A DNA stretch of 39,023 bases, from positions 1-39,023 of the forward strand of contig CADBRM010000030.1 in assembly GCA_902797085.1 (NCBI GenBank), in the 5' to 3' direction. This DNA is from an uncultured Methanobacteriaceae archaeon. Lineage in GTDB: Archaea; Methanobacteriota; Methanobacteria; Methanobacteriales; Methanobacteriaceae. Each line of letters starts with the position of its first letter. Position 1 is the first letter of the stretch. The position numbers were made by a program, and so were the translations under genes. The notes below the pieces were generated by a model. It did no database searches. It was not told where the DNA came from and worked only from the letters and a program-made list of their open reading frames with translations. Shown here one piece after another: positions 2,644-25,524 of this stretch.

Positions 2644-2766
2644 TTAATAAATAATATAATAATCATTGAAAAGAATTGTATCAAAGATTTTTACATCACT
2701 GAAATCGGTTTTCTTTTTTGAGTTTTTATTTTTGTTATCGTTTTTAGGGATTTTGAATATTGACAT
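2644..2766 (-). CDS. Possible small ORF (40 aa), Lys/Asp/Asn-rich
   Basis: An ATG at 2766 opens 40 codons ending in TAA. An AGTGAT element 4 bases upstream of the ATG is only a weak ribosome site. The N-terminal half is very lysine- and asparagine-rich and the C-terminal half turns hydrophobic (VKIFDTILFNDYYIIY). It lies between two better supported small minus-strand ORFs. In A+T-rich DNA an ORF this short can be random, so this is a low-confidence call. Confidence 0.3.
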   Translation of the reverse strand: MSIFKIPKNDNKNKNSKKKTDFSDVKIFDTILFNDYYIIY

Positions 2767-2807
2767 TAGTATCACTACTATGGAAGATTATTTTTTTTTG
2801 CCGTTAA

Positions 2808-2978
2808 TTACATGGTTGGAATCATCACTAATTTCATGGAGATTAAGAACATTACCGTTACTGCAATAATTGTAAATACTGCTGTAATATCTACCTCCTG
2901 AAGATTGATATCATTGATTAATAGATCTCTTTTTGGTTCGAGTGTCCGGATTCTGTCATTTCTAATATTTTCAAACAT
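2808..2978 (-). CDS. Small single-pass membrane protein (56 aa) beside the putative origin
   Basis: Unrecognised. The ATG at 2978 is preceded by AGGTGAT with a 4-base spacer. The product has a charged N-terminal half (MFENIRNDRIRTLEPKRD...) followed by one strongly hydrophobic segment, ITAVFTIIAVTVMFLISM (about residues 31-48), and ends at residue 56. That layout is typical of a small tail-anchored or single-pass membrane protein. It starts about 100 bp from the hairpin and repeat cluster and points away from it. The good ribosome site and coherent topology argue for a real gene despite its size. Confidence 0.55.
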   Translation of the reverse strand: MFENIRNDRIRTLEPKRDLLINDINLQEVDITAVFTIIAVTVMFLISMKLVMIPTM

Positions 2979-23082: not shown

Positions 23083-24180
23083 ATGTCAGCAGCTGAAGAT
23101 AGAATTAAACAGATAGAAGAGGAAATTAAAAAGACTCAAAAAAATAAGGCAACATCACACCATATCGGTAAACTTAAAGCACAAATTGCTCAGCTTAAAG
23201 AAAAGATTGAAAAACGTAACAGTTCTTCTACAAAGGGTGAAGGGTTCTTAGTCAGAAAAAGTGGTGACTCAACAGCCGTTTTATTAGGATTCCCTTCCGT
23301 TGGTAAATCCACCATTTTAAATTATTTAACCAATGCAAATTCTAAGGTTGGAGCATATGAATTTACAACATTAGATATTGTTCCGGGTATCATGGAATAC
23401 GAAGATGCCAAGATTCAAATTTTAGATATCCCTGGTATTATCAAAGGTGCTAGTAAAGGTAAAGGTAAAGGTCGTGAAATATTATCCGCTACCAGAAATG
23501 CTGATTTAATCATTATGGTTCTGGATGTTTTCCAACCGGAACATATGGAAGTTATCCTAGAAGAAGTTAGAAATATTGGTGTACGGCCTAATGAGAAAAG
23601 ACCTGAAGTGAAAGTTTCCAAGAAGAAAATGGGTGGTTTAAACATTGTATCTACAGTTGAATTAACACATCTTGATGATAAGACCATTCATTCCATACTG
23701 AGTGAATATGGAATTCACAGTGCCGATGTTGTATTAAGAGAAGACGTTACGATTGACAGATTTATTGATGCTATGGAACCAAATCGTGCTTACATTCCAA
23801 TGACCATTGTTGTAAATAAGATAGATTTAGCCAGCCAGGAACAACTTGATGAACTTAAAAAGAAATTACCTAATGCATTGTTTGTTTCTGCAGACGATGG
23901 TATTATGATGGAAGAATTAAAAGAAAGAATATTTGTCGATCTCGATTTGATAAGGTTATATCTCAAACCTCAAGGAAAAAAAGCAGATATGGATGAACCG
24001 TTAATTATCCGTAAAGGTTCTACAATTGAAGATGTTGCACATAAGCTACACAGAGATTTCGTTAAAAATTTCAAATATGCTAAAGTATGGGGAGACTCTG
24101 TTAAATTCCCTGGTCAAAAAGTCGGATTAGAACATGTTTTATCCGATCATGACATCGTAAGAATTATTATAAAAAAATAA
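23083..24180 (+). CDS. DRG-family GTPase with TGS domain
   Basis: Archaeal member of the developmentally regulated GTP-binding (DRG/Rbg1) group of Obg-type GTPases, which act with ribosomes. In 365 residues: an N-terminal charged coiled-coil/helix-turn-helix ([15 protein letters not shown]), G1 GFPSVGKST (about 69-77), G2 around EFTTLD, G3 [18 protein letters not shown] (about 111-128), an inserted S5D2L-like region (about 155-230), G4 VNKID (about 245-249), G5 FVSADDG, and a C-terminal TGS domain from about 290 ([20 protein letters not shown]). GGTGTGA precedes the ATG. It is transcribed alone. Confidence 0.93.
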
Positions 24181-24244
24181 TATTTTTCCAATACAAGAAA
24201 AATTTAATGAATTTAATGTAAAATTTAACAAATTTTGAACATAG

Positions 24245-24253
24245 TATATATTA
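24245..24253 (+). promoter_or_regulatory. TATA box of small RNA candidate 1
   Basis: TATATATTA is centred about 22 bp upstream of the conserved block that begins at 24271. The equivalent element stands in nearly the same place in the second copy. Confidence 0.55.
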
Positions 24254-24270
24254 AAGATTGACACAACTAT

Positions 24271-24361
24271 TAATTGTACCCACAGAACAAATTTATTTTT
24301 ATTGTGATAATACATATAATTTCTATATACAAATTATATAGATTCACAGTTATCTTTTTTT
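24271..24361 (+). ncRNA. Small structured RNA candidate, copy 1 of 2
   Basis: No protein frame with a ribosome site is present. The predicted RNA starts with the 14-nt block TAATTGTACCCACA (24271-24284), shared exactly with copy 2. About 16 nt later is a hairpin: outer stem ATTGTGA (24301-24307) with TCACAGT (24344-24350), inner stem ATATAATTT (24314-24322) with AAATTATAT (24331-24339), and an 8-nt loop. A T-run (24355-24361) follows as terminator. The inner stem differs in sequence from copy 2 yet still pairs, which is covariation supporting an RNA. It does not show C/D or H/ACA guide boxes. Its function is unknown. Confidence 0.6.
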
Positions 24362-24366
24362 GAATT

Positions 24367-24428
24367 TTATTTCCTGCAGATTATTCTTTAAATTACCAAC
24401 ATATTCCAGAATCTTGCAGGGGAAATAA
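24367..24428. repeat. Long imperfect inverted repeat between the two small RNAs
   Basis: Arm 1 (24367-24387) begins TTATTTCCTGCAG and arm 2 (24408-24428) ends TGCAGGGGAAATAA. They pair over TTATTTCC/GGAAATAA, then TGCA/TGCA after a 2-base bulge, then GAT and TCT segments, around a 20-base loop. It could be a processing or termination hairpin, a third RNA, or a regulatory site. Confidence 0.5.
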
Positions 24429-24502
24429 TTTGGTTCGTCAATATACAAACTTTTAAAATCATATTCCAAAATTTAAGAGAACTTTAACAGAATACAGCTA
24501 AG

Positions 24503-24511
24503 TATATATAA
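24503..24511 (+). promoter_or_regulatory. TATA box of small RNA candidate 2
   Basis: TATATATAA is centred about 24 bp before the conserved block at 24531. An A/C-rich stretch upstream could hold a TFB-recognition element. Confidence 0.55.
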
Positions 24512-24530
24512 GACTCTTAATACAAAGAAC

Positions 24531-24618
24531 TAATTGTACCCACAAACACATATAATTATTTAAATTGTGATGTGAATGCCTTTTTATTCACTAGTCACAG
24601 TTATTTATTTTTCTTTTT
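24531..24618 (+). ncRNA. Small structured RNA candidate, copy 2 of 2
   Basis: Second copy exactly 260 bp right of the first. It begins with TAATTGTACCCACA (24531-24544). The hairpin has outer stem AATTGTGA (24563-24570) with TCACAGTT (24595-24602, one G-U pair), inner stem GTGAAT (24572-24577) with ATTCAC (24586-24591), an 8-nt loop and an asymmetric 1/3-nt internal loop. A U-rich end, TTATTTATTTTTCTTTTT, follows. In both copies the 3' strand ACAGTTA could instead pair with the 5' TAATTGT, so two folds compete. The downstream 190 bp to the next gene hold nothing I can identify. Confidence 0.6.
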
Positions 24619-24807: not shown

Positions 24808-25524
24808 TCAAATTGAATAAGCTAAGTCTATGAATTCAATTTGAACATTTTCTTTTTTTAACGATTCTATTATTTTTTCAGCATAAAATAACTTCTTTTT
24901 CTTAAACTCATCTGCTTCTTTAACTTCAACACCTATTTCTGGCCTAGAGTAACTGGTAACAAAATCTCCAAAATCCATCCCGGCAAGTACAACCTTATTC
25001 ATTTTTAACTTATACACTGCAATGTGTACAGCCCTATCACCATCAGTGAATCCACCATAATTTTCCAAATTATTAAATGGTTCACATTGACATGTTGGGA
25101 TAATCTTATCCAACTTTTCCAGAAACCTTTCTATTTTATCAATATTATCCCCATGAGCATGGACATACAATATTGATCCCATCCTGTTTGATTCAATTAT
25201 ACTACCCATATCACCATCCAGGTCGGTGACTATAATATCCGGAATAATATCTTCTTCCAAAAGTGCAGTTGTTGCACCATCTGCTGCAATTAAAGTATAA
25301 CTTCCAACATCAACATTACTTTTAAGATAAGCTATATGTTTTTTAATTGATGGTCCAGCACCAAAAACAATACATTGATGTTTAAAATCTACATGAGATA
25401 TGTCAAATTTACCTAGTTTATTAATTTTTTCATCCAAAATTTTTGCTGAACGCTTGTCATCAGCAATACTGAAATGAAAATCATCCAATATCTGCCGATA
25501 CCAATTTTTCCAATCATTATACAT
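24808..25524 (-). CDS. mptE: 6-hydroxymethyl-7,8-dihydropterin pyrophosphokinase MptE
   Basis: Archaeal (DUF115-type) kinase that transfers diphosphate from ATP to 6-hydroxymethyldihydropterin in tetrahydromethanopterin synthesis; it is unrelated to bacterial FolK. The 238 residues show CIVFGAGPSIKKHI (about 50-63), AADGATTALLEEDIIPDIIVTDLDGD (about 80-105, acidic residues for Mg-ATP), VHAHGDN, and GGFTDGDRAVHIA (about 156-168). The GMDFGDF loop is near 180. It is convergent with the small RNA pair and divergent from the aminotransferase gene. The ribosome site at the ATG is weak (GATGTGG). Confidence 0.9.
   Translation of the reverse strand: MYNDWKNWYRQILDDFHFSIADDKRSAKILDEKINKLGKFDISHVDFKHQCIVFGAGPSIKKHIAYLKSNVDVGSYTLIAADGATTALLEEDIIPDIIVTDLDGDMGSIIESNRMGSILYVHAHGDNIDKIERFLEKLDKIIPTCQCEPFNNLENYGGFTDGDRAVHIAVYKLKMNKVVLAGMDFGDFVTSYSRPEIGVEVKEADEFKKKKLFYAEKIIESLKKENVQIEFIDLAYSI

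Follow-up and report, generated by a model that had tools for sequence, protein, structure and literature searches.

Two intergenic units in the window, the 39,023-nucleotide stretch of a 1.77 Mb Methanosphaera genome analysed here, are almost certainly RNA genes, and the reading we favour is that they encode paralogous, independently transcribed, trans-acting antisense RNAs directed against the leader and start site of the mRNAs of mtaB, the gene of the methanol:corrinoid methyltransferase MtaB. Both RNA genes carry two complementarities to this initiation region, each specific to mtaB in the genome sequences, making mtaB very probably their target; given such targeting, repression is the likely outcome because the start codon would be covered. 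Gene structure, conservation and both complementarities with their specificity can be read from the sequences; that the RNAs are transcribed, that they pair with mtaB mRNAs in the cell, that they repress and do not activate, and that a signal controls them is inferred.

The units lie between a gene for a DRG-type GTPase (23083-24180, forward strand, MMR_HSR1 and TGS by Pfam), the constant neighbour of unit 1 by synteny, and a gene for an MptE-like protein (24808-25524, reverse strand, assigned by Pfam), the constant convergent neighbour of unit 2. In each, a TATA box is followed by a 14-nt block and an AU-rich linker, and these by a hairpin (outer stem TTGTGA/TCACAG) and a T-run, all on the forward strand. 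Unit 1 (type a, 24271-24361 from block to T-run, a predicted small RNA of ~80-90 nt; 74.2 bits, E 5e-10 with the covariance model below, and syntenic behind the DRG gene) is preceded by the TATA box TATATATT (24245-24252) and begins with the block TAATTGTACCCACA (24271-24284), within which seed 1, UACCCACA (24277-24284), is complementary to the mtaB leader site UGUGGGUA. Outer-stem strands ATTGTGA (24301-24307) and TCACAGT (24344-24350), recognised by pairing across copies, enclose seed 2, ACAUAUAAUUUC (24312-24323), complementary to GAAAUUAUAUGU of the mtaB Shine-Dalgarno/start region, and the 3' strand of the inner stem, AAATTATATAG (24331-24341), which by sequence and fold pairs with seed 2 and mimics its target. 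The T-run at 24355-24361 is the putative terminator, and other copies also end T-rich. Unit 2 (type b, 24531-24618 from block to T-runs; 69.9 bits, E 3.4e-9, and beside mptE across the inversion described below) has its TATA box, TATATATA, at 24503-24510, the block at 24531-24544, and the same seed 1 at 24537-24544. Its seed 2, ACAUAUAAUU (24548-24557), complementary to the mtaB start AAUUAUAUGU, precedes outer-stem strands ATTGTGA (24564-24570) and TCACAGT (24595-24601) around the inner hairpin GTGAAT/ATTCAC (24572-24591), and UUCACU at 24587-24592 is computed to pair with mtaB AGUGGUGAA as well.

These are the only exact copies of the block in the genome and lie exactly 260 bp apart. The original prediction of twin small-RNA genes thus described the locus accurately, its identical block, spacing, outer stem, unlike inner stems and T-runs all being present. 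In most copies of the family the TATA box starts ~32-36 nt 5' of UACCCACA, and as archaeal transcription starts ~23 bp after the TATA box (a rule quoted in PMC11409679) the small RNA probably begins only a few bases 5' of UACCCACA. An own promoter (TATA box) and terminator (hairpin and T-run) in an intergenic position are what is expected of a trans-encoded base-pairing small RNA; no same-strand gene follows in cis, the downstream mptE being convergent on the other strand.

A block search over relatives, read together with the surroundings of the hits, finds the same tandem pair in the same place in most Methanosphaera genomes, with type a 3' of the DRG gene and type b converging on mptE. The covariance-model search that had been proposed with the original prediction, carried out with a model of 25 copies, recovers members in 18 of the 20 genomes of the genus and none in 119 genomes from 16 other genera of the family; a diverged copy in G016 brings the count to 19 of 20. 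Such genus-wide recurrence indicates more than chance, for which folding energy alone is a weaker argument, with a clear signal in unit 2 (z -3.79) and an unremarkable one in unit 1 (z -1.15), and a prediction that was to fall if conservation failed in related genomes therefore stands. Two genomes (G009, G019) have the DRG gene inverted relative to mptE, the DRG gene keeping type a and type b remaining with mptE, so that the units are two separate genes. Of the two genomes missed by the covariance model, one (G016) does carry a copy, long and diverged, in the expected location, and the assembly of the other (G018) shows no DRG gene, which indicates the small-RNA locus is probably missing there. 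The G016 copy (L121 ~2739-2960, reverse strand), on the deepest branch, is a single long unit in place of the pair, with the seed at its 5' end and a terminator stem TTGTGACAT/ATGTCACA ~130 nt further on, possibly a fusion or an ancestral form. A third, diverged copy with UACCCACA intact is seen in the same intergenic region of G003 (L065 8674) and G013 (L064 1899).

Neither unit matches Rfam, either at the gathering score or with E values of up to 1 allowed, in keeping with the earlier view that no named family has this shape, and a tRNA search gave no match to them. Spread past the genus was considered and rejected, the three pattern matches outside Methanosphaera (Spirochaetales, Rhodobacteraceae and Prevotellaceae) being about as many as we would expect from chance with a pattern this loose. 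The viral contigs searched contain no match, and the loci 3' of DRG in other genera, where mptE is not the neighbour, contain no UACCCACA.

The hairpin is maintained across this divergence. In 31 distinct copies, pairing in the outer stem is 96% over its eight inner pairs and 85% over ten pairs, versus 33-48% when the ten-pair stem is slid by 1-3 nt. Most outer-stem pairs are invariant, one varies as A-T, T-A and C-G, and in G011 an otherwise nearly invariant pair shows a compensatory change from T-A to A-T (TAGTGA/TCACTG). The inner stems are unlike between types and species, yet mostly still paired. Selection on hairpin pairing, suspected in the original prediction, is thus borne out by the pairing of the eight inner pairs and the G011 change. 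The bases 5' of UACCCACA are variable (TATTTA, AATGCA, TAACTA and others), and the 5' TAATTG may lie partly ahead of the transcription start. A 5' mini-hairpin suggested by RNAalifold, TTGT/ACAR around ACCC, was dropped as it is broken in diverged copies.

The invariant element of both RNAs is UACCCACA, at the RNA 5' end. The complementary UGUGGGUA is found 34-52 nt 5' of the AUG in 30/30 distinct Methanosphaera mtaB leaders examined, with TGTGGGTAT at this distance in every mtaB gene with a readable leader across the genus. When the genus was searched for the complement TGTGGGTA and the contexts were read in three genomes (G009, G004, G002), the G009 sites that stood out, each ahead of a ribosome site and start codon, proved to be those of four genes, every one identified by Pfam as MtaB; two of the four were checked by NCBIfam, and the next genes are named MtaC. 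The remaining G009 sites, mostly inside coding sequence on either strand, were rejected as further targets, and chance probably accounts for a match at the hsdM start in G004. Searching the 20 genomes in full for the site together with a Shine-Dalgarno gave 40 matches; 32 could be assigned to mtaB from their position or leader sequence, and the other eight are fewer than the reversed-pattern control level. This specificity test replaced shuffling of the 16-nt 5' block (p 0.002-0.13), a poor test. The site is found in 0/8 mtaB leaders from three genera without the RNA, in which the Shine-Dalgarno sequences differ too. Ranked by pairing with the 5' block, mtaB leaders come top in the seven genomes with leaders to rank (17-96 leaders per genome, partly from loci chosen for having the site; the window's own genome, G000, is not rankable). 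Full mtaB genes were not recovered in that genome, and one leader at a contig end (G000:C64) carries the site. Indeed, mtaB is cut at contig ends in many drafts (G000:C64:57-107, with matches in G005, G006, G007 and G010), probably because near-identical copies collapse in assembly, and gene counts from such drafts are therefore too low. In the mtaB class whose proteins start like MVTKRF (KRF-type), a TATA-like sequence ~17 nt ahead of site 1 means that transcripts may start only after the site.

The original prediction had proposed the exposed ACCCAC as an antisense seed for GGGU-type ribosome sites; the seed idea survives, with a target that is not a generic ribosome site but UGUGGGUA in mtaB leaders, and a second seed, against the mtaB ribosome-binding/start region, had gone unnoticed. 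This second conserved stretch, ACAUAUAAUUUC in unit 1 and ACAUAUAAUU in unit 2, is an exact complement of the mtaB Shine-Dalgarno/start region, such conserved complementarity to the initiation region of a distant mRNA being characteristic of trans-encoded base-pairing small RNAs. Genes of mtaB with protein start MSRK or MAQK mostly have a common Shine-Dalgarno and start, GGTGAAATTATATG, a 14-mer of which 22 of the 23 occurrences in the 20 genomes are at mtaB, and the core of which is found in 0/241 other leaders examined. Its complement is located in the hairpin in type a (ACATATAATTTC) and in the linker in type b (ACATATAATT), where the hairpin UUCACU is able to pair with the adjoining mtaB AGUGGUGAA. 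Dinucleotide shuffles of the RNA body match as well with p mostly 0.0005-0.02, and type a retains seed 2 even where the opposite hairpin strand varies. Seed 2 fits the KRF-type class poorly, and in some genomes its type b form does not reach the high ranks when scored against every leader; it is weak or lost in three copies (type b of G001 and G012, type a of G011).

Together these complementarities suggest how the RNAs would act. Seed 1, at the RNA 5' end, would pair as an anchor with UGUGGGUA(UAA) in the mtaB leader, and seed 2 would pair with the Shine-Dalgarno/start-codon region GGUGAAAUUAUAUGU, through ACAUAUAAUUUC in unit 1 and through ACAUAUAAUU together with the hairpin UUCACU in unit 2. 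The 3' hairpin and U-run would serve as terminator, and the unit 1 hairpin would hold seed 2 on its target mimic until displaced by the mRNA. Bound RNA would cover the start site and so lower MtaB synthesis from several gene copies simultaneously. Because the 5'-3' order of the two seeds is also that of their sites, no single continuous duplex can form and two separate helices are needed, a contact that would be easier because both sites are predicted from the TATA positions to lie near free 5' ends. A more specific version, in which this genus-defining pair sets the output of all methanol-methyltransferase copies, the 5' end clamping the leader and the hairpin-held seed 2 covering the start codon in two same-order helices, an unusual form of contact, is put forward tentatively.

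The seed 1 match could alternatively arise at the level of DNA, TGTGGGTA being an operator bound by a transcription factor at the promoters of both mtaB and the small RNAs, in which case the seed and leader would be one shared site in opposite orientations and the RNAs would target something else. In both gene sets the site lies close to where transcription is predicted to begin, and in KRF-type mtaB it may fall between TATA box and start; its constant orientation rests on few independent origins, and intergenic TGTWCCCACA arrays exist in G018. However, the core is common and the flanks differ, mtaB always having A and T (A-TGTGGGTA-T) and the RNA genes R on both sides of TACCCACA, and an operator leaves aside the second, independent complementarity to the mtaB start. 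The diverged copies also vary in a manner compatible with RNA pairing. Seed 2 of the deep-branching G016, GACATGTAGTTT, has two changes, each replacing A by G where the partner is U, and keeps 13 pairs (-14.1 kcal/mol), and seed 1 there gains one pair (12 bp, -19.2); the second G004 copy, UACUCACA, still pairs through G-U and has extended its pairing on the other flank (13 bp, -15.9); and in every copy the base 5' of the seed core is G or A, opposite an invariant U of the leaders. These changes, though few events, fit RNA pairing better than a DNA operator, which we consider unlikely. It is also doubtful, if somewhat easier to envisage, that the same RNAs activate the same targets, seed 1 opening a leader hairpin that hides the start or capping the mRNA 5' end against decay. 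Activation is conceivable because site 1 pairs with the start region in the computed folds of several mtaB leaders, and sRNA154 of Methanosarcina mazei has a dual role in which some nif mRNAs are stabilised. The leader folds are, however, of low stability (about -1 to -9 kcal/mol), and the start codon would be covered by seed 2 itself.

The original prediction further held that the 3' strand could pair with either the hairpin or the 5' TAATTGT, and that the RNA could thereby switch, like a riboswitch, between two competing folds. Both pairings are indeed possible in the two copies of the window (7/7 pairs for the alternative), but the 5' partner is variable and the alternative is complete in 11/31 copies, falling as low as 2/7 pairs in diverged ones. 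A riboswitch would have two conserved, mutually exclusive folds and would lie in the leader of the gene it controls; here the alternative pairing is lost in diverged copies, mptE is convergent, no same-strand cis gene follows and the RNA has its own terminator, leaving a switch highly improbable. Scarcely any weight can be given either to the view that the units belong to the DRG 3' untranslated region or are dispersed repeats rather than genes: unit 1 is always close behind the DRG gene, but each unit has its own TATA box at near-fixed distance, unit 2 remains with mptE when DRG is inverted away, copies are not dispersed and the conserved seeds match a single gene family.

As antisense RNAs against mtaB, the pair would constitute a new RNA family of a known kind, the methanogen RNAs that mask ribosome-binding sites, with new sequence and an unusually well-defined apparent direct target. 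Bacterial sibling small RNAs such as OmrA/OmrB are likewise tandem paralogues with a common 5' seed, differing bodies and common targets, but are Hfq-dependent, and we claim no homology. In Methanosarcina mazei sRNA162 has two target-binding domains and a single-stranded linker that masks a ribosome-binding site, acts on the regulator mRNA MM2441 and a cis-encoded mRNA, and is linked to control of methanol/methylamine methyltransferases (PMC3510493). The Methanosphaera RNAs resemble it as methanogen small RNAs for which two target-binding domains, ribosome-site masking and a methyltransferase link are predicted; they differ in that sRNA162 does not act directly on mtaB, whereas here two paralogous copies are predicted to target the enzyme genes themselves, and neither Rfam nor sequence links them. 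The intergenic, genus-conserved, structured sRNA154 of the same species carries an anti-RBS sequence in a loop and has nitrogen-fixation targets (PMC5867862). The Methanosphaera RNAs are likewise intergenic, genus-conserved and structured with an anti-RBS sequence in a loop, but their predicted targets are others, seed 1 is at the free 5' end and no sequence relation is seen. The mta isozymes of Methanosarcina are reported to be under post-transcriptional 5'-UTR control (Opulencia, Bose and Metcalf 2009, as cited in PMC3960522). As far as that citation goes, methanol methyltransferase genes are in both cases controlled post-transcription through leaders, as a prediction here, in another genus and with another leader sequence. 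We know of no trans-acting RNA partner in the Methanosarcina mta control. Our literature search, which covered papers outside subscription, found no description of a Methanosphaera small RNA of this kind.

Archaeal small RNAs with a known target are few, and here both partners follow from sequence. Methanosphaera requires methanol for growth (PMC10506414), and the predicted target is the entry enzyme of methanol-dependent energy metabolism in a common gut and rumen methanogen. If the prediction is true, methanol-derived methane in Methanosphaera would be controlled partly via two short RNAs.

Several minor features accompany these sequences. Most mtaB leaders have AAGTATT ~60-75 nt upstream of the site, a possible activator site (e.g. 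L177 around 1390-1492), and in many the site itself reads ATG TGG GTA TAA, a possible mini-ORF. Hairpin-less intergenic clusters occur in G018, with six TGTWCCCACA in ~330 bp (L072 3862-4197), and in G013, with three TGTGGGTAC (L138 2888-2933), and leave a DNA-binding motif some plausibility. In G009 (L140 3487-3507) and G019 (L139 1049-1069), TGTGGGTAT occurs twice, 13 bp apart, just beyond the 3' end of a convergent nikR-like gene; if transcribed on that strand the doublet could act on the small RNAs as a decoy (sponge), and if the other strand is transcribed it could represent seed-like repeats in the nikR 3' end.
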